Below are positions 2,264 to 22,500 of a stretch of DNA of 22,500 nt, piece after piece (positions within the stretch are counted from its first letter, which is position 1; each line of letters opens with the position of its first letter). Location: the NCBI RefSeq assembly GCF_040448675.1, contig NZ_CP159289.1, positions 3,097,501-3,120,000 on the forward strand, written 5' to 3'. The translations under genes and the position numbers were made by a program. The notes beneath the pieces are model-generated. The model searched no databases. It saw only the letters and a program-made list of their open reading frames with translations, and was not told where the DNA came from. This DNA comes from Dyadobacter sp. 676 (lineage in GTDB: Bacteria > Bacteroidota > Bacteroidia > Cytophagales > Spirosomataceae).

Positions 2264-4075
2264 CTAATTGATCACATCGCCTCTCAAAACGCGGAAGCGC
2301 TTCCGCGACTCGGCGACAAAAATACTACCCGGGTATTTTTCCATGAGCTCCTGGTAAAGCTTCATCGCCTGGTCCTTGTCGTTGAGCTTCTCCTGATAAA
2401 GCTTCGCCATCGCAAAGAGCGCGTCGTCGCCGTACAGGTCGTGACCGTATTTGGAATACAACAATTTCAGGTCGGCCATCGCCTGCTGGTTGCTGTCGAG
2501 CTTGATGTATGTTTTGGCGGTAAGCCAAAGTATCTCGTCGGCGAGACTGTGATTTTCGTATCTTTTATAAAGTTGTTTCAAAGTATCAATTGCCTCGTAC
2601 TTTTTGTTCTGGAACAATTGCAACTCCACCGCGGAATACGCCTTCATCGCTGCTTCGGTGCTATCGAGGCCCGTATTATCCATAATTAGCAGCGAAAGCT
2701 CGTTTGCATCGTTCGCGATCTCACGGGATGTCGCCTTCTTAAGAATGTCGAGAACAGCCTTTGCCAATTCGAATTCACCTTTAAAATAATGCAACTTGGC
2801 GTTCCTGAGCTTCGCTTCATAGCCGAGTACATCGTCCTTCTGCGACTTTTCAACCTGCGAATAAACCAATGTAGCCTCCCACGGCTCGCCCTGCAGTAGG
2901 TAAATATCTCCCAGATCGAGCTTACATTTATCTACAAAATTCTTCTCGGCTTTACCCGCCTCGATAGCAGTTTGCAGTATCTCGATCGCCTTTTTAAAAT
3001 CATCCATATAAAAGGCATTCAGGATCGCCATATTGCGCAATGCCTCGATCGTACGCACATTCACCCCAAGCTCGTCGACTAATTGCTGATATTGCCCGAG
3101 CAGCTTCTGAACTTCGCTCCTCTTGACGGGATAAGTGTTTTTAACCTGCTCCTCCCTGGCGAAAATCGCCATCCTTCGAGCTACCGGATAGAGCTGGCCT
3201 TTCGGATATTCTTTCACCAAATGATCGAATATGTTGCCGGCGTTGGTATAATCATTATTCTGAAGAGCGAGCATTCCAAGATTGTAAAGCCGCGATCCGT
3301 TGTGCTTGAAACGACGATCGAGCGCGCGTTCCTGGATAAATGCTTTGTAAAAATCCTTGCGTTGCACCTGGTACCAGATGAGCAATTCATTGTAAAAGCC
3401 TTCCTGAGGGAACTTCTGGATCTTGTCGTACAGTACCTTTTCCAGCAGCGCCTGCTCCTTCTCGTCCTTCGTAAAGTCCTGAAGCATATTCTGAACGACC
3501 TCCGTATTCTGGTAACGCATACCATAGGAAAGCAGCTCGTCGATCATCTTTTCAGGCTGGTTCAGGTCGCGGTAAACGCTCGCCAGTTCCAGCTGAAAGA
3601 TATCGTAGCGCTTGGCGCTTTCCCGGGCCTCGAGCAGGATATTCTTAGCCCATTCCGCCTGGTTTTGTGCGCGGAATTCCTCCGCCAGATCGCGTTTAAG
3701 CTCGGTTCTCGCTCCCGATGCGGTAACGACCTGCTCATATTTTTTGGACGCCTCCACGGCCTTTCCCTGGTTCTCGAGCATAATGCCCCAGTTCAGATAA
3801 TACCAGGCCGCATTAGCGGCATCCCCTTTGATCTGCTTTTTGAGGAACTGCTCGCCATCGCCCCACGCCTTGCTTTTCACAATGCAACTGGTGTAATTTT
3901 TGAGTGCGACTTTTTCAAACGAGTTCTTCAGATACGAAGAATAGTAACTAAGGGCCTTCGGGCAATCCCCGTTTTTGAAATATTCCTCGGCCAGTTCCCG
4001 CTCCCCCTGCCCGAACGCCGCGGCCGCCCCGGAAAGCAGAAATCCTATCATCAAACAGCTCGTAACCCTTTTCAT
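2264..4075 (-). CDS. Exported tetratricopeptide-repeat protein
   Basis: A 603-residue protein with an N-terminal signal peptide (MKRVTSCLMIGFLLSGAAAA, likely cleaved after FGQ at residue 23). The rest is almost entirely helical repeats of TPR type: recurrent patterns such as AEEYFKNGDCPKALSYYSSY, YNLGMLALQNNDYTNAGNIF and ALFAMAKLYQEKLNDKDQAM, with alternating small and aromatic residues. TPR arrays mediate protein-protein contacts, and the signal peptide places it in the periplasm or at the outer membrane. No catalytic motif was seen and the partner is unknown. It converges on thrC and its 5' end borders the DnaA-box region. Start ATG 4075..4073 is chosen because it gives the signal peptide directly. 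I recognise the architecture but not a named family. Confidence 0.88.
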   Translation of the reverse strand: MKRVTSCLMIGFLLSGAAAAFGQGERELAEEYFKNGDCPKALSYYSSYLKNSFEKVALKNYTSCIVKSKAWGDGEQFLKKQIKGDAANAAWYYLNWGIMLENQGKAVEASKKYEQVVTASGARTELKRDLAEEFRAQNQAEWAKNILLEARESAKRYDIFQLELASVYRDLNQPEKMIDELLSYGMRYQNTEVVQNMLQDFTKDEKEQALLEKVLYDKIQKFPQEGFYNELLIWYQVQRKDFYKAFIQERALDRRFKHNGSRLYNLGMLALQNNDYTNAGNIFDHLVKEYPKGQLYPVARRMAIFAREEQVKNTYPVKRSEVQKLLGQYQQLVDELGVNVRTIEALRNMAILNAFYMDDFKKAIEILQTAIEAGKAEKNFVDKCKLDLGDIYLLQGEPWEATLVYSQVEKSQKDDVLGYEAKLRNAKLHYFKGEFELAKAVLDILKKATSREIANDANELSLLIMDNTGLDSTEAAMKAYSAVELQLFQNKKYEAIDTLKQLYKRYENHSLADEILWLTAKTYIKLDSNQQAMADLKLLYSKYGHDLYGDDALFAMAKLYQEKLNDKDQAMKLYQELMEKYPGSIFVAESRKRFRVLRGDVIN

Positions 4076-4123
4076 AATAGATAAAAAAATCTTTTCCTTT
4101 TAGTTATTATCCTTCAGTGTGCC

Positions 4124-4490
4124 TGTGGATTTGTGAATAATTCCTTTATCCACTGTAGATTAACATACTTATCCACATTTTGTGTATAACTTATGCGAGT
4201 TATGCACTGTAGAATTTTTTGAAATCAACATTTAAAACGCTGAACTACAAGTTAGGAATTATTCTGTTCACATTCGAATGTGGGTAAACTCCTTTTAGAT
4301 GACTACTTTTGTTATCCACAGTTTCTAAAGTGAATCAACGTACTGTTAACTCCGTTTTAGATGTTGGTTATCCACTGCAGGGCGAAATTCCCTTTTTTAT
4401 CCACACTTATTGGGGGTTATCCACAAGGTTATTCACAATTTCGCCCCTTTTACCAACAAGATTTCCGCGTTATACACATAGTTATCCACA
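4124..4490. other. oriC: DnaA-box cluster, candidate chromosomal replication origin (oriC)
   Basis: This 435-bp gene-free stretch (4076-4510) holds about 14 DnaA boxes. Perfect TTATCCACA: 4169, 4312, 4397, 4417, 4482. TTATNCACA matches: 4132 (reverse), 4181 (reverse), 4429, 4470. One mismatch: 4146, 4200, 4279 (reverse), 4368. Two mismatches: 4124 (reverse). They form a left group (4124-4208) and a right group (4279-4490). The 70-bp AT-rich, box-free gap between them (4209-4278) could be the unwinding element. Two related segments, AACTCC-TTTTAGATG (4287-4301 and 4348-4363), each precede a box. Such density is the hallmark of bacterial origins; a DnaA-titrating locus is the alternative. No dnaA gene is in the window. 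Confidence 0.8.
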
Positions 4491-4510: not shown

Positions 4511-6127
4511 TTATTTTTCTTCAGGAATGGTGATGTTAATGTCATTCAGTTCAAAATTCGCCTTCAAAAGGATCCTATCCGGGATGTAATAGATCGGCTC
4601 CGGCTGAAGGCCCTTGTCCATCTGCCCGGTGTCCCATCGCCGGTTCCGATTTTTGTCGATGGTAATGCGCAAAAAATATTTTCCTTGAGGGATATTCCTG
4701 AAAGTGTAAGGCGATTCGTAGAGTGTTTCGATCACCTTGTACTGCTCGTCGACCAGGTCGAGTATGAAATGCACCGAGGTGTCGGCGTTTGTGACGCGGC
4801 CTCGGATGACACCAAAATCTTCTTCTTTTAAAATTGGGTGCCGGAGCAGCGTTTTGGGAAGCGTATCGCCTTCCACGCTGATGATCGAACCTTTTGGTAT
4901 ATCGAATTTCACGGTATCCTTTGCAAAGGATTTTGCCTCTATCGTCAGGATATTGTGGTTTTTGTTCCAGTTGTACTTAAATGCGTTTAGCGGCTCATGT
5001 GTGAGACTGTCGGAGATAATCGCGATTTTCTGATCATCGATTGTCTTGACCGGTTTATTCAGAATGAGCTTGTACGTGAATGCATTGGTGACGGGTTTAT
5101 TCGCTTCGGGGAACGTAGTGAGCGACATCGGATCGAGTTGGCGCGTTTTGCCACGTTGCGCCTGAAATGCTATTTTTTGCTCGAACTCGCCTGAAATTCC
5201 GAGCGAGTCTATCGTTTTGAGCTTTACCAACGTAGTGTCCGGGTGGGGTTGTACATTAAAAAATTTGAGGTTGGCACCGTTCGGTTCCAGCAAATAGGGA
5301 AGTGTGTCTTTATTCATAAATATGACTTCCACATTCTCGATCGGTTTACTGAAAACGACCGAATAATTGTTCACTTTGGGAAGCGTTCGCTGCACTTTGA
5401 GCGGAGTGTTGTCGGACAAATACATATTTAGCTGGTAAGTCGCGGAATCGGTGCCGGCCGTTATGGTTTTGCTCCAGAAACCCATCCGTTCATCTTTCGC
5501 ATTGTAAAGCATATTGCGGTTTTTATCGTCGATAGCAATGAGTTTGTACTGCCTGGTCTGGATGTTTTCGATGGAAAAGATACCGCTGCTATCGGTTCGC
5601 GAGAAGTAATAGGGCTTTTGCTTGGCGATATTAAGGGTGTCGCTGACGTTGTAGAGGCCTACCAGGGCATCGAAAACAGGTTTGTTGGTGCGGATATCTT
5701 TCACTGTTCCGTACACGCGCCCTGAGTCGAGCGAATTGCCCGTGCTGAATACGATTTTGAGGTTTTTTGCAGGGTTCTTCTCTGCAAAATCCTTGATCGC
5801 ATCGCCAAAATTCAAGGTATAGGTAGTACTGTCCTTGAATTGATTTTTGAATGTGAGCTGCACCGACATTCCGTTTGGTTTATATGAATACGGGTTATCG
5901 GCCTCAGGCGTAATTACAAGCTTTTGATTGATATTGTCCACCACCACATATTCGTCGAAGAACAATTCGATTTTTTTGCCTTTGAAATTGAGGGTTTTGT
6001 TCAAGGGATTGCTTTCCACGAGATTGGGTGGAATCGAGTCCCTTTTCCCGCCTGTAGGCGGAACCTGCTGCGCGCAGCGCTCGAAAAAAAACAGTACGAG
6101 GATGGCAAATACTATTGTTCTAAGCAT
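4511..6127 (-). CDS. Ig-like (Big_5-type) domain lipoprotein
   Basis: A 538-residue putative surface or periplasmic lipoprotein. The chosen start, ATG 6127..6125, gives MLRTIVFAILVLFFFERCAQ, a hydrophobic signal segment ending at Cys18. The frame is open further upstream to 6364, but that extension overlaps the preceding gene and a terminator and looks non-coding. Around residue 31, IPPNLVESNPLNKTLNF with KIELFFDEYVVVDN is typical of the Big_5 (SbsA Ig-like) domain. A second segment (GRVYGTVKDIRTNKPVFDALVGLYN) resembles a carboxypeptidase-regulatory-like beta-sandwich. CAQQVPPTGGKRD after the signal is a common Bacteroidota lipoprotein start. Oddly, the residues before the Cys (E-R) do not match a canonical lipobox. 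The function is unknown; a structural or cell-envelope role is inferred. Its 3' end borders the DnaA-box cluster. Confidence 0.85.
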   Translation of the reverse strand: MLRTIVFAILVLFFFERCAQQVPPTGGKRDSIPPNLVESNPLNKTLNFKGKKIELFFDEYVVVDNINQKLVITPEADNPYSYKPNGMSVQLTFKNQFKDSTTYTLNFGDAIKDFAEKNPAKNLKIVFSTGNSLDSGRVYGTVKDIRTNKPVFDALVGLYNVSDTLNIAKQKPYYFSRTDSSGIFSIENIQTRQYKLIAIDDKNRNMLYNAKDERMGFWSKTITAGTDSATYQLNMYLSDNTPLKVQRTLPKVNNYSVVFSKPIENVEVIFMNKDTLPYLLEPNGANLKFFNVQPHPDTTLVKLKTIDSLGISGEFEQKIAFQAQRGKTRQLDPMSLTTFPEANKPVTNAFTYKLILNKPVKTIDDQKIAIISDSLTHEPLNAFKYNWNKNHNILTIEAKSFAKDTVKFDIPKGSIISVEGDTLPKTLLRHPILKEEDFGVIRGRVTNADTSVHFILDLVDEQYKVIETLYESPYTFRNIPQGKYFLRITIDKNRNRRWDTGQMDKGLQPEPIYYIPDRILLKANFELNDINITIPEEK

Positions 6128-6140
6128 TTCAAATAAATTT

Positions 6141-6176
6141 AAAAAAGCCCCCCAATACAGTGGGTATTGAGGGCCG
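6141..6176 (-). terminator. Rho-independent terminator after the methyltransferase gene
   Basis: On the minus strand the arm at 6175..6164, ending CTCAATAC, pairs imperfectly with GTATTGGGGGGC (6158..6147) around a 5-nt loop, followed by six U's (6146..6141). It ends the ybeY-mnmG-methyltransferase transcript and lies only 14 nt before the lipoprotein start codon. Confidence 0.75.
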
Positions 6177-6195
6177 TTTGTTGTGTTGAGACTTT

Positions 6196-7098
6196 TCAGT
6201 TTTTCGAAATAATGTAGATCAGGCTGGAAGTGTTCAACTCTTTGTTTGTTCCCGCGCGGCCTTTCAGGTTGGATTGCAAGCCGGTGATCACGCTGTCGAA
6301 AATATTCATTTTTTTGTTCTTGTACTTTGTGCTGAGCATACTCACATAGAAGGAGTCGAACCACATCGGAAGGATCTTTTTAACCACCAAATCATGCCGC
6401 TGCAGCAGGTTTTTCATACTGGCACGTGTGAAATGGTACAAATGCCGCGGAACGTCGTAAGCAGCCCAAAAACGGCCGTATTTAGCAGCATCGTGCGACT
6501 GCGGATTCGGCACCGCGATGATGATCCGGCCATTTGGTCTGAGGTGGTTTTGCAGCCAGTCGATCGTTTCATTCAACTTATGGACATGTTCCAGAACATG
6601 CCACAGGGTGATGATGTCGTATAACTGTGTATCCAGAGTTTGCTCAGTAATGCCTTCAAAGATGGTTGCTCCTACTCTCTTCGAAGCGATCTCCCGCGCT
6701 CCTGGATCCGGTTCTGTACCGAAGGTTTTCCAGCCGTCTTGTTTCACGGCACTTAAAAAACTGCCCGTTCCGCAGCCGATATCGAGTAATGTTCCTTTCG
6801 GTTGAACGAGACTGTTAATCAGTTTCACCTTTTGTTCGATAGTATGATTTCGTACCGAAGTATACGCTTTGCTCATCAGATCCCTGGCGTCGTCGTGATG
6901 AGAAATGTAATCCTGCGACTCATAATATGCGCCGATTTGTTCTTCGGAGGGGCGCGGATTCGTGAACAGAAAGTAGCAGGAATTGCATTGCTGGATCGTG
7001 AATTCTTTGTGCGAAACGGTATAATCCTCCACATTCAGGTAATTGCTGAAACTGGATTGCTGGCATACCGGGCATTTGTCGAGCGTTTCTAAAGACAT
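6196..7098 (-). CDS. Class I SAM-dependent methyltransferase with N-terminal CxxC zinc-ribbon-like motif
   Basis: A 300-residue cytoplasmic protein. Two Cys pairs, C9xxC12 and C38xxC41, form a probable zinc ribbon. They are followed by a Rossmann methyltransferase domain with motif I LLDIGCGTGSF (residues 104-114) and ITLWHVLEHV, as in the Methyltransf_23 group. The substrate is not evident; many relatives are annotated only as class I methyltransferases, including ones acting on sugars or small molecules. Its start codon overlaps the mnmG stop codon by one base (TAATG), implying translational coupling with mnmG and perhaps a link to RNA metabolism, which is unproven. A terminator follows. 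Confidence 0.9.
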   Translation of the reverse strand: MSLETLDKCPVCQQSSFSNYLNVEDYTVSHKEFTIQQCNSCYFLFTNPRPSEEQIGAYYESQDYISHHDDARDLMSKAYTSVRNHTIEQKVKLINSLVQPKGTLLDIGCGTGSFLSAVKQDGWKTFGTEPDPGAREIASKRVGATIFEGITEQTLDTQLYDIITLWHVLEHVHKLNETIDWLQNHLRPNGRIIIAVPNPQSHDAAKYGRFWAAYDVPRHLYHFTRASMKNLLQRHDLVVKKILPMWFDSFYVSMLSTKYKNKKMNIFDSVITGLQSNLKGRAGTNKELNTSSLIYIISKN

Positions 7099-8961
7099 TA
7101 GCGGCCTATGTAAAGCATTAAAACAGATATATCCGAAGGGCTGACACCGCTGATGCGCGACGCCTGGCCGATCGTCGAGGGGCGTGTCCTTTTCAGTTTT
7201 TCACGGCCCTCAAAGGACAAGGAAGTGACCACATCGTAGTTGAAATTGTCCACGATGGCGAGGTTTTCCAGCTTATTCATTTTCTCCACGAGCAGCATTT
7301 CCTTTTCGATGTAGCTGTCGTATTTCAGATTGATCTCCGCTTGCTGAACAGAATCGATTTCGTATTCGGCAAGGAGCCCGGTAACGACGGGACTTGCTTC
7401 CAGCAGCTGATCGATTGAAATTTGCGGTCTTTTCAGCAGCTGCGCAACGGCAATTTTTTCACGTATGGGTGCCGTACCGATCGCTTCCAATGCGGCATTG
7501 ATCTCGTCGGGAGTCAACTTCGTAGCATTTAGCCTTCCGATAATTTCTTCCGTCTCACGCTTCTTTTTACGCACAGCCTCTACCCTTTCTTTGCTCGCCA
7601 AACCGATTTCATAACCTTTTTCCGTAAGCCTTAAATCCGCATTGTCCTGACGGAGCAATGTGCGGTATTCGGCGCGGGATGTGAACATGCGGTACGGCTC
7701 TTCGGTGCCTTTATTAATGAGATCGTCGATCAATACGCCTATGTACGCTTCCGACCTTTTCAGAACAAACGGCTCGAGCTCGTTCACGTTCCGGTGCGCA
7801 TTGATGCCGGCCATTAATCCCTGGCAAGCTGCTTCTTCATAACCCGTAGTGCCGTTGATCTGGCCGGCAAAGAAAAGATTTTTCACCAGATGTGTTTCGA
7901 GCGTCGATTTCAGCTGCGTCGGCGGAAAATAGTCGTACTCGATGGCATACCCCGGACGGAACATTTTAGCATTTTCAAATCCGGGTATTTTCCGTAGTGC
8001 GGCGTATTGCACGTCCTCCGGCAGCGACGTTGAGAAGCCATTGACATACACTTCCACGGTGTCCCAGCCTTCGGGTTCCACGAAGATCTGGTGACGGTCC
8101 TTATCCGCAAACCGGTTGATCTTATCTTCCACGGATGGACAATAGCGTGGCCCCAGACCTTTAATGCGTCCCGAAAACATCGGAGATTTTTCAAAACCGG
8201 TTTTCAGGATATCATGGACCTCCTGGTTCGTATAGGTGATCCAGCAGCTTCGTTGCTTGCTTAGCGGCTTGGTATCGGTATAGGAAAACTTGGCGGGCTT
8301 TTCGTCGCCAGGTTGCTCTTCCATTTTCGAGTAGTCGAGCGAGCGGCCGTCGACACGTGGTGGCGTGCCGGTTTTCATGCGACCTGCTTCGAAGCCGAGC
8401 GATACCAGTTGTTCCGTCAAGCCCGTGGCGGATTTCTCCCCGGTGCGGCCACCACCGAAGTTCTTTTCACCGATATGAATAAGGCCATTAAGGAAGGTTC
8501 CGTTTGTCAGTACTACGGCCTTTGAGCGGATTTCGATTCCTAGGCTGGTTATTACGCCGCAGGCTCTGCCGTTCTCGACGATAACATTCTTCGCAGTGTC
8601 CTGCCAGAAGTCGACATTCGGATTATTCTCGAGAACCGACCGCCACTCTTCGGCGAACCGTACCCGGTCGCTCTGGCAACGCGGGCTCCACATGGCAGGT
8701 CCTTTGGAGAGATTCAGCATGCGGAACTGGATCATCGTTTTGTCGGAGACGATGCCCGACTGCCCACCGAGCGCATCTATTTCCCGGACGATTTGTCCCT
8801 TCGCGACGCCCCCCCATCGCAGGGTTGCACGACATCTGTGCGATGGTGTGCATATTCATTGTGATCAGCAGCACCGACGAACCCATCGTCGCTGCCGCGG
8901 CGGCGGCCTCGCATCCGGCATGGCCTGCGCCTACCACGATCACATCATATTCCTGAAACAT
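7098..8961 (-). CDS. mnmG: tRNA U34 carboxymethylaminomethyl-modifying enzyme subunit MnmG (GidA), frame broken at a G7 run
   Basis: FAD-dependent partner of MnmE that makes the cmnm5 modification at wobble U34 of certain tRNAs; cytoplasmic. The start [20 protein letters not shown] carries the FAD-binding GxGxx[26 protein letters not shown] and the C-terminal [14 protein letters not shown] are family motifs. The N-terminal frame reads through NPAMGG and then shifts; the expected [18 protein letters not shown] and all downstream family sequence lie in another frame. One extra G in the seven-G run (C7 on the plus strand, 8809-8815) explains it: with six G's the gene encodes 620 residues, the normal length. 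GTG 8973 four codons upstream is an alternative start. The most likely cause is a homopolymer error in the sequence; a real mutation or slippage site is possible. It lies downstream of ybeY and overlaps the methyltransferase by one base. Confidence 0.93.
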
Positions 8962-8996
8962 ATTATTACTCACTTGTTAAACTACTTTAATTAAAG

Positions 8997-9012
8997 TGTT
9001 CCACGTGGAAAT
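8997..9012. promoter_or_regulatory. parS: parS-like site (ParB-binding, chromosome segregation)
   Basis: TGTTCCACGTGGAAAT contains the perfect palindrome TTCCACGTGGAA and matches the widespread parS consensus TGTTNCACGTGNAACA at 14 of 16 positions (only the last two differ). It lies in the 55-bp gap between ybeY and mnmG, 4.5 kb from the DnaA-box cluster; parS sites typically lie near oriC. No other CACGTG in the window has matching flanks. Confidence 0.72.
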
Positions 9013-17331: not shown

Positions 17332-18146
17332 AGAACCAGAGGATTTAAATTGCTATGTTGAGTTAAGTCTTGTTGCAAACCTGCAAGTGCGGCGCCTGGG
17401 TTCGCGGTTTTCATAAATGTTTCTCCTATTAAAAAGCCCTTATAGCCGTGCTGAAACAGCTTCACAATGGTTTCGGCGTCTTTCAGGCCACTTTCTGAAA
17501 TCTTCACGAACTGCTCCGGGATCAGCTCGCTGAGTGCGATGGACGTTTCAATAGAGGTTTCAAAAGTTTTCAGATTGCGGTTGTTCACGCCCACGATATC
17601 GATATGCTCGCCTGTGCTTGCAGCCAGCTCCTCTGCATCATGGACTTCCAGCAGTACTTCCAGCCCGAGCTCGTGCGCCCTGCGGCTCAAATGGGCGATT
17701 TCCGAAGGCGTAAGACATGCTGCGATGAGCAGGATCACGTCCGCACCGATGGATTTGGCCTCGAAAAGCTGGTATTCGTCCACTATAAAATCTTTCCGGA
17801 GCATCGGGATCGCCGGATTGGCCTCCCGCGCTGCAAGAAAATCGGCAAACGAGCCGCCGAAAAAGTCGATATCGGTGAGTACCGACAGCGCCACGGCGCC
17901 TGCATTCACGTAATCCCGAGTCACGATCTGTGGCTGTACGTCGCCGCTGATAATACCTTTCGAAGGGGATTTTCTTTTAAATTCCGAAATAATGCGGGGT
18001 GTTGCAGATGATCTTAGCGCCGCCGCCAGCGAAGTAGTCGGACGCGAAAACAATGGCTCCTTTTCCAGCTCGGAAATGGGCCGCTGCTTTTTCGATTCGC
18101 TGATTTCTTCCTGCTTGCGGGCGATAATTTTTTCTAAAATATTCAT
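17328..18146 (-). CDS. trpC: Indole-3-glycerol-phosphate synthase
   Basis: Ring closure of CdRP to indole-3-glycerol phosphate; TIM barrel. 272 residues, normal. N-terminal MNILEKIIARKQEEISESKK, then IISEFKRKSPSKG (catalytic Glu55 and Lys57 region), MLRKDFIVDEYQ and GVNNRNLKTF with the late SESG motif are all characteristic. Overlaps trpF by 4 bp. Upstream, 52 bp separate it from trpD; a small imperfect hairpin with five U's lies there. Confidence 0.97.
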   Translation of the reverse strand: MNILEKIIARKQEEISESKKQRPISELEKEPLFSRPTTSLAAALRSSATPRIISEFKRKSPSKGIISGDVQPQIVTRDYVNAGAVALSVLTDIDFFGGSFADFLAAREANPAIPMLRKDFIVDEYQLFEAKSIGADVILLIAACLTPSEIAHLSRRAHELGLEVLLEVHDAEELAASTGEHIDIVGVNNRNLKTFETSIETSIALSELIPEQFVKISESGLKDAETIVKLFQHGYKGFLIGETFMKTANPGAALAGLQQDLTQHSNLNPLVL

Positions 18147-18198: not shown

Positions 18199-19189
18199 CT
18201 ATTCTTCGATCAATTTTTTGAAAGCGGCCAACGCTTTCTTACTTTCGAGCGACTCGCGGGCCGTCTCCACAGCGTCGGTCAGCGACAGTGCCGGATTGGC
18301 ACAATAAAGCGCCATAGCCGCATTGGCCAGTACCGCTTGCTTCTGCGAAGGCGTCGCCGTGTCGTTCAAAACATTCATGAAAATCCGGGCCGATTCTTCG
18401 ACTGTCGCACCGCCCGATAAATCGTCGGCGCGCAAAGTTTGAAGCCCTAGATGAGAGGGGGTAAGAACTTGCTCGGAATGAGCGGTGATAATTTTAAAAG
18501 CACCTGTCAATGACACTTCGTCGTAACCGTCTAATGCGTGAAGAACCAGAAATTGCTTATCCGTTTGTTGGTAAAGATAAGCAAAAAGACGCGCTAATTC
18601 AAGACTGAATACGCCCACAAGCTGTTTTTTCGGGGATACCGGGTTCACCATCGGACCCAGCATATTGAAAAAAGTTTTCACGCCCAATTCCTTTCTTACC
18701 GGCGCTACATTCTTCATAGCGGGGTGAAAAAGAGGGGCGTGCAGGAAGCACACACCCGCCTGGTCGATCTTCCGTTCAAGATAATCCTTATCGTTTGTAA
18801 ACTTCGCTCCCAGGTATTCCAGCACCGTCGACGACCCGCACAGGGAGGAAACGCCGTGGTTACCATGTTTCGCCACCTTTTGACCAGCCCCCGCCACCAC
18901 AAAACATGAGAGCGTCGAGATATTGAACGTGTCCTTGCCGTCGCCCCCCCGTTCCGCAAACATCGATGGGGTCGTATGCCGACAAATCTACCGAAAGGCA
19001 CAGTTCGAGCAGGCCGTCACGGAAGCCTTCCAGCTCTTTCACGGTAATGCTGCGCATAGCATAAGTGGTTAGGAACGAGGCGATTTCGGAATTGGAATAC
19101 TTGCCGGTTCCGATGCCCATTAAGACGTCTTTGGCTTGCTCTTTGTCGAGGACCTTGTATTCAAAAAGATGGCTAAGAATGTGTTTCAT
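18199..19189 (-). CDS. trpD: Anthranilate phosphoribosyltransferase, frame broken at a G7 run
   Basis: Transfers phosphoribosyl from PRPP to anthranilate, the second pathway step. The N-terminal frame (from ATG 19189) gives MKHILSHLFEYKVLDKEQAK through YDPIDVCGTGG, then loses homology. The expected continuation DGKDTFNISTLSCFVVAGAG, KHGNHGVSSLCGS and the rest lie in another frame to the stop at 18199. GTGGDG is the conserved PRPP-binding loop, so the break falls in an essential motif. One extra G in the seven-G run (C7 on the plus strand, 18944-18950) explains it; with six G's the protein is 329 residues, the normal length. The situation is identical to mnmG in this window. Most likely a homopolymer error; otherwise a recent mutation making the strain auxotrophic, or slippage. 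Confidence 0.93.
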
Positions 19190-22044: not shown

Positions 22045-22054
22045 GTAAATAATT

Positions 22055-22161
22055 GTGGCGACTACCTACTTTACCAGGTTTGAACCAAGTATCATCGGCG
22101 GTACGGGGCTTAACTTCTCTGTTCGGGATGGGAAGAGGTGAACACCCGGCCAATAGTCACC
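22055..22161 (-). rRNA. rrf: 5S ribosomal RNA
   Basis: Read on the minus strand, the sequence contains the strongly conserved CCATCCCGAACAGAGAAG and TTAAGCCCC segments. Its ends pair (GGTGACTA with TAGTCGCC) as 5S helix I. Length about 107 nt; the ends are uncertain by a few bases. Confidence 0.93.
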
Positions 22162-22182
22162 AACAAGCTCTTTGAGTATTTC

Positions 22183-22216
22183 AATGATTGAATGATCGAA
22201 TTTTGAATGATTGAAT
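22183..22216. repeat. Direct repeat in the 23S-5S spacer
   Basis: AATGATTGAAT occurs at 22183-22193 and 22206-22216, a 23-bp period, in an AT-rich spacer that is otherwise featureless and has no tRNA. It may be a processing or structural element. Confidence 0.4.
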
Positions 22217-22290
22217 AAAAGATATTCACTGATTCAGACATTCAACATTGAATTTCATGTCATATTGGAAGTAGAAGAGATGAAGATAAA

Positions 22291-22500
22291 GATTAAATGT
22301 GCAAGCTGTTGGGTAATTAGTACTGCTCAGCTGAGTGTATTTCGACACGTATACCTGCAGCCTATCAACGTCGTAGTCTACAACGACCCTTATGTGGAAG
22401 ATTCATCTTCGGGCTAGTTTCGCACTTAGATGCTTTCAGCGCTTATCTATTCCCCACATAGCTACCCGGCCATGCTACTGGCGTAACAACCGGCTCACCA
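22291..22500 (-). rRNA. rrl: 23S ribosomal RNA, 3' end (cut by window edge)
   Basis: The minus-strand sequence ending GTACTAATTACCCAACAGCT is the conserved 3' terminus of domain VI. Further in, GGTGAGCCGGTTGTTACGCC and TCTAAGTGCGAAACTAGCCC are recognisable 23S sequence. The gene continues beyond the window; the exact 3' end is uncertain by about 10-15 nt. Confidence 0.92.

Follow-up and report, generated by a model that had tools for sequence, protein, structure and literature searches.

A DnaA-box cluster far from dnaA as the very probable replication origin of the Dyadobacter chromosome, with an rRNA operon directed toward it

Introduction

In Escherichia coli, the chromosomal origin oriC carries TTATCCACA DnaA boxes, is not located beside dnaA and has mnmG (gidA) nearby; the box groups of bipartite origins, as in Bacillus subtilis and Helicobacter pylori, flank or adjoin dnaA. 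A DnaA-trio beside a box is a further feature of oriC, not a universal one, and the orientation of rRNA operons away from oriC is a strong tendency, not a definition. Clustered boxes are also found away from the origin, in the DnaA-control loci datA and DARS of E. coli. The E. coli DnaA-box consensus is given as TTATCCACA in the accessible part of a published article (PMC10225481). According to the accessible part of the Prevotella genome paper (PMC4755523), an oriC far from dnaA is common in Bacteroidetes, and the oriC of the first chromosome of Prevotella intermedia OMA14, predicted by Ori-Finder, is a roughly 480-base multi-box locus with a clear skew transition, far from dnaA. A described origin for Dyadobacter was not found in our literature searches, and a word search of the D. 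fermentans genome paper (PMC3035232) gave no "origin".

Here, we describe a DnaA-box cluster in a window of 22,500 nucleotides, namely bases 3,097,501-3,120,000 of the 7,284,078-base single-contig genome of Dyadobacter sp. 676 (G000), for which no plasmid match was found. The 12 named relatives retrieved with the Big_5 protein encoded beside the cluster all belong to Dyadobacter. The locus is like that of P. intermedia OMA14 in its many boxes, its skew transition and its distance from dnaA, but the latter belongs to another genus, and the comparison covers these three features. It shares with E. coli oriC the TTATCCACA boxes, a non-adjacent dnaA and the presence of mnmG in the neighbourhood, whereas it differs in having more strong boxes, arranged in two groups around a 70-bp gap, and in the distance of about 2.6 kb to mnmG. 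Two box groups are also present in the B. subtilis and H. pylori origins; in Dyadobacter, however, only the 70-bp gap separates them and no DnaA-trio run beyond chance was detected.

Results

The cluster sits in a 435-bp intergenic gap between a TPR-repeat gene and a gene coding for a Big_5 (Ig-like) protein, the coordinates of the latter being those of the longest ORF, with the true start probably further in (Table 1). The site scan retrieved nine exact TTATNCACA sites, five of them in the TTATCCACA form, and four sites with one mismatch, in agreement with the five perfect and four further boxes of the preliminary description. The total of about 14 boxes proposed there amounts to 13 at up to one mismatch, a fourteenth requiring the admission of a two-mismatch site such as 4124-4132. 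Seven of the eight sites of the right group (4279 onward) lie on the plus strand, as claimed. The subdivision into two groups around a 70-bp gap also holds, but this gap, previously described as AT-rich and box-free, is only mildly AT-rich (71% AT versus 66% in the whole intergenic gap) and includes one two-mismatch site at 4264.

Table 1. Features of the proposed origin region and its surroundings (window positions; "exact" and "near" refer to TTATNCACA with zero and one mismatch in this genome; fractions are same-genus loci unless otherwise stated)
Feature	Position	Strand	Remarks
TPR-repeat gene	2264-4075	-	left border of the box gap; leading-strand-like composition
Candidate DNA-unwinding element	4062-4118		75% AT; overlaps the TPR start codon; putative function
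DnaA-box cluster, proposed oriC core	4124-4490		9 exact TTATNCACA and 4 one-mismatch sites
DnaA box TTATTCACA, exact	4132-4140	-	up to 1 mismatch in 29/37
Near box TTATCCACT	4146-4154	+	1 mismatch in 26/37
Conserved non-box motif AGATTAACA, candidate	4157-4165	+	majority base at least 85% in every column, 37 loci
DnaA box TTATCCACA, exact	4169-4177	+	faces the 4181 box; TTATNCACA exact in 28/37
DnaA box TTATACACA, exact	4181-4189	-	exact in 32/37
Near box TTATGCACT	4200-4208	+	up to 1 mismatch in 34/37
70-bp gap between the groups, without close boxes	4209-4278		71% AT; second unwinding candidate, putative function
Near box TTACCCACA	4279-4287	-	up to 1 mismatch in 23/37
DnaA box TTATCCACA, exact	4312-4320	+	exact in 30/37
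Conserved non-box motif TGTTAACT, candidate	4344-4351	+	alignment of 37 loci
Near box TTATCCACT	4368-4376	+	1 mismatch in 24/37
DnaA box TTATCCACA, exact	4397-4405	+	exact in 29/37
DnaA box TTATCCACA, exact	4417-4425	+	exact in 31/37
DnaA box TTATTCACA, exact	4429-4437	+	exact in just 7/37
DnaA box TTATACACA, exact	4470-4478	+	12 bp ahead of the same-direction 4482 box; exact in 22/37
DnaA box TTATCCACA, exact	4482-4490	+	most conserved; exact in 37/37
Big_5 (Ig-like) gene	4511-6364	-	right border; lagging-strand-like composition
parS-like palindrome TGTTCCACGTGGAAAT	8997-9012	+	between mnmG and ybeY; counterpart in the loci of 20/20 relatives
rRNA operon, 3' end	22053-22500	-	directed toward the cluster; 5S 22053-22164, 23S from 22296 on

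The mean number of exact sites in 300 first-order Markov sequences built from the gap was 0.06 (maximum 2) against the nine observed, and that of sites with up to one mismatch was 0.80 (maximum 4) against 13. Over the whole window, 34 sites with up to one mismatch were counted where 15.07 were expected, the top value of 100 shuffles being 24. When the searchable (unmasked) part of the 7.28-Mb genome was scanned for two exact boxes in the same direction (TTATNCACA, gap of 3-30, TTATNCAC), four matches were obtained, all in the cluster, and one with the reversed control; a relaxed pattern gave five matches, three in the cluster and two isolated elsewhere, again with one for the control. No other place in the searchable genome showed five consecutive perfect boxes within less than 24.8 kb. 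A dense intergenic cluster of DnaA boxes, as characterizes bacterial oriC, is present here.

The sole dnaA match of the genome was located at 829.6 kb, 2.27 Mb from the cluster, confirming that the gene is outside the window as originally noted, and the 3.2-kb dnaA locus showed no exact box. Among 40 sampled stretches, the highest number of exact TTATNCACA sites was five in 20 kb (G000:C1:3458001-3478000). In the whole genome, perfect TTATCCACA sites outside the cluster grow sparser with distance from the proposed origin, 34/60 falling within 0.91 Mb and 59/60 within 2.73 Mb, while the single reversed control word used was evenly distributed (18/69 and 52/69, respectively).

GC skew was determined on the same 40 sampled stretches, each up to 20 kb, plus the window. 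All 19 stretches to the left of the window (0 to 3.097 Mb) were negative and all 19 to the right (3.12 to 6.57 Mb) were positive, with the two stretches beyond 6.9 Mb being negative again. By these sampled stretches, the minus-to-plus switch expected at oriC falls at the window, so that the skew check suggested by the preliminary description came out in favour of an origin here; the opposite point of the chromosome, around 6.74 Mb, is where the skew reverses. A clean skew switch was not seen in the sampled stretches of G005, G012, G040 and G013.

The position at the skew switch bears on the possibility of a datA-like locus that titrates or inactivates DnaA without being an origin. Clustered boxes are shared with datA and DARS of E. 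coli, and DnaA could be titrated by so large a number of strong boxes, of which two face each other; a titration locus, however, should lie apart from the origin, whereas the Dyadobacter cluster coincides with the skew switch of the genome, and the searchable sequence holds no other same-direction paired-box cluster. We consider this explanation very unlikely.

The Big_5 protein was encoded in all of the 59 genomes searched (this one, 36 of the same genus and 22 of the order). At the 37 same-genus loci compared, out of 48 genomes of the genus, the cluster was retained without exception, with 4 to 9 exact boxes per gap at near-fixed spacing, thus showing the conserved place and box layout typical of an oriC and answering the proposed comparison of this gap among related genomes. 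The mean majority-base fraction over the 37 loci was 0.924 in the box columns versus 0.679 in the other columns. The 21-base word TTATNCACATAGTTATCCACA occurs as a single copy in 27 of the 48 genus genomes and is absent from the other 21. Outside the genus, the comparison covered loci from 13 of the 22 genomes of the order, and 5 of these 13 carried at least two exact boxes no further than 1.3 kb from the 3' end of Big_5. A locus from another family of the order (L086, G044) displayed an unusually long box field, with 17 exact TTATNCACA in 7.6 kb, spread over both the Big_5 gene and the gap.

A further reading, to which the left boxes, being upstream of the TPR start, would lend themselves, is that of a promoter region through which DnaA regulates the TPR gene. 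Far more boxes are present than regulation should need, their spacing is near-fixed over the whole gap and the skew evidence also speaks against it, so that a mere promoter role appears extremely improbable.

As to the place of DNA opening, a nearest-neighbour scan of the window gave its lowest stability over 50 bp at nt 4062-4111, although by a small margin (52.5, the next separate stretches having 52.7 and 52.8). This stretch adjoins the boxes but overlaps a gene start. The candidate unwinding element including it contains three conserved runs (4069-4081, 4083-4088 and 4104-4109). A scan for a DnaA-trio beside a box gave a longest run of two, which is not beyond chance (442 of 5000 random 40-mers reach at least two).

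The minus strand carries nearly all the genes in this window. The presence of mnmG near the boxes, previously reported, was verified at nt 7098-8973, about 2.6 kb away, where it is split over two frames. Both mnmG and trpD (nt 18199-19189) are in fact broken in this way in the present genome, and at the matching places G012 has single ORFs of 621 and 330 aa, identified by position; the frame splits are perhaps assembly indels.

The parS-like site mentioned in the preliminary description does exist at nt 8997-9012, with 14 of 16 positions matching the parS consensus TGTTNCACGTGNAACA, and it carries the sole GTTCCACGTGGAA of the genome. Its value as an origin neighbour is less certain: a search at up to three mismatches is expected to yield one match by chance (mean 0.85), so that the site with its two mismatches is by itself weak evidence, and a better match, with one mismatch, is located at 2,931.8 kb. 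One HTH_ParB protein, a ParB, is encoded at 531 kb. In a locus from another family (L130, G040), a perfect TGTTCCACGTGGAACA was observed 2-3 kb from the same Big_5 gene, accompanied at a distance of 36 bp by a copy with one mismatch (nt 17583-17634).

Since the excess of minus-strand genes biases the raw skew, the position of the switch within the window was addressed by gene comparisons within one strand. Trained on 395 genes of this genome (cross-validated AUC 0.878), with arm labels presupposing an origin within the window, a leading/lagging classifier scored thrC (plus strand) at -3.65 and, on the minus strand, TPR at +4.74 and Big_5 at -4.23. For the segment from 4.5 to 21.7 kb of the window, the mean was -0.79 over 12 of its 17 gene pieces, a value as low in 0 of 20,000 random leading sets and as high in 19% of lagging sets; the five short pieces left out are the mnmG N-part, ybeY, a Dabb-like gene, the trpD N-part and a piece between trpG and trpE. 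When the near stretches were excluded from training (381 genes), the lowest running score fell between TPR and Big_5 (-16.29), followed by -13.78 after trpD and -6.82 to the right of trpE, but the minimum at the cluster depends on the omission of the five short pieces and shifts to after trpD when they are added.

When all pieces entered a synonymous-codon test weighted by length (381 genes, AUC 0.823), the profile was flat from the cluster to about 19 kb: it stood at -16.1 at the cluster, reached its lowest value of -18.3 near 15 kb and rose to -14.0 on the right side of trpE and to -3.3 by 3.139 Mb. At the fourfold sites of the 4.5-21.7 kb segment, the value was +0.038, between the leading (+0.084) and the lagging (-0.034) one and nearer the former; values as extreme occurred in 1.7% of the lagging resamples and in 13.7% of the leading ones. 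When the G000 model was applied to 20 relatives, TPR was positive and Big_5 negative in all of them, while the segment mean was negative in nine and positive in 11; the GC content of these 11 was 0.42-0.45 versus 0.486 in the window, as was that of two of the nine. A model trained on G034 (94 genes, AUC 0.882) gave +2.58 for TPR and -0.77 for the segment, which fits a switch at the cluster, and own-genome classifiers were too weak for G012 (AUC 0.674), G005 (0.698) and G013 (33 genes, 0.813). The composition thus places the switch inside the window, most likely between about 4 and 19 kb, without a choice within this range; a switch at the box gap, and not up to 15 kb to its right, would be our reading.

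The rRNA operons at the two sides behave differently. The left operon, whose 5S end is some 10-12 kb distant from the cluster, is directed away from it in all of the 11 genomes where it was located (G000, G034, G012, G013, G017, G020, G036, G005, G063, G022 and G019), and hence follows the orientation tendency of oriC. The right operon does not: it points toward the cluster in 16 genomes, this one and 15 others (G000, G034, G012, G019, G013, G063 and 10 of 20 draft contig ends, the other 10 being without rRNA). In our own genome the operons were located by 5S, a 16S search giving no match, probably since the operon stretches are masked. In G005, G017, G020 and G036 the right operon is found at +56 to +64 kb and is directed away. 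As shown by alignment, the direction differs between genomes because the segment to the right of trpE is inverted: compared with this genome it is inverted in nine (G005, G017, G020, G036, G022, G010, G015, G008 and G031) and colinear in G034, G012, G019 and G013, with no alignment for G029. Here, it spans about 3119.2-3167.1 kb, i.e., some 48 kb including the operon, the far end being near 3,167.1 kb. The two arrangements, firm in 15 and nine genomes, require at least three changes on the best tree (Big_5 and part of TPR, 37 genomes), seven inner branches of which are weakly supported.

If the cluster is the origin, a head-on rRNA operon lies about 18 kb from it in this genome, and transcription of the right operon, as well as of the genes between 4.5 and 21.7 kb, would oppose the right fork. 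A published study (PMC2797598) describes an almost exclusive co-directionality of rRNA and tRNA genes and examines the cost of head-on rRNA transcription with engineered inversions. Either the operon is replicated head-on, which is unusual for rRNA, or the origin lies beyond the operon, where no box cluster was found.

According to the second option, replication would start in the invertible segment, at about 3.125-3.167 Mb, and the boxes would serve as an accessory DnaA-binding site nearby. Both flanking rRNA operons would then be co-directional in either arrangement, in line with the near-exclusive co-directionality just cited (PMC2797598), and the inversions would do little harm; moreover, in the codon test, a switch just to the right of trpE is merely 2.2 units behind the cluster, and composition could trail a recent inversion. 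On the other hand, a single exact TTATNCACA is present in the segment here (5 kb being masked, presumably the operon), no two exact boxes within 400 bp were found in 14 right flanks of other same-genus genomes, each spanning a portion of the segment, and its genes are right-arm-like on average (means of 1.56 for L035 and 1.17 for L036). In the synonymous-codon test, a switch in mid-segment trails the cluster by at least 13 units. Given the 2.2 units on the trpE side, the decision between cluster and segment is carried mostly by the box evidence, which makes an origin inside the segment, in our opinion, unlikely.

Discussion

On the whole, the box gap is in all likelihood the oriC from which bidirectional replication of the Dyadobacter chromosome would start. 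The earlier proposal of a chromosomal origin away from dnaA is thus supported by the skew switch and by the conserved boxes. Our confidence is held down by the right rRNA operon pointing toward the origin and by the gene composition, which leaves the switch anywhere between about 4 and 19 kb of the window.

The double-stranded boxes would be bound by DnaA, whose gene is 2.27 Mb distant. On the right (4279-4490) they form a tandem array with mostly one direction, and on the left (4132-4208) a smaller group of mixed orientation. The complex might then open AT-rich DNA, most likely at 4062-4118 beside the left group or else in the central gap at 4209-4278, and helicases would be loaded at the opened DNA. 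Of the two departing forks, the left would cross the TPR gene and the right Big_5, mnmG and trp, before meeting near 6.74 Mb.

A dnaA-distant oriC is ordinary for the phylum, the odd element being the nearby rRNA operon oriented against the copying direction. We slightly favour the view that a segment on one side of oriC was repeatedly inverted at approximately the same two points together with an rRNA operon, and that many lineages, the present one among them, keep a head-on operon about 18 kb away, against the near-universal co-orientation. Among the titles and abstract openings of mostly open literature, none reported a naturally head-on rRNA operon for Dyadobacter.

The locus would mark the origin in a genus for which the literature offered us no described one, and the compact box map over 37 genomes may serve for testing how the DnaA of Bacteroidota opens DNA. 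The neighbouring inversion merits more interest than the origin itself: an operon facing the origin and a recurrent inversion, if true, would provide natural pairs of related species for measuring the cost of head-on rRNA transcription.
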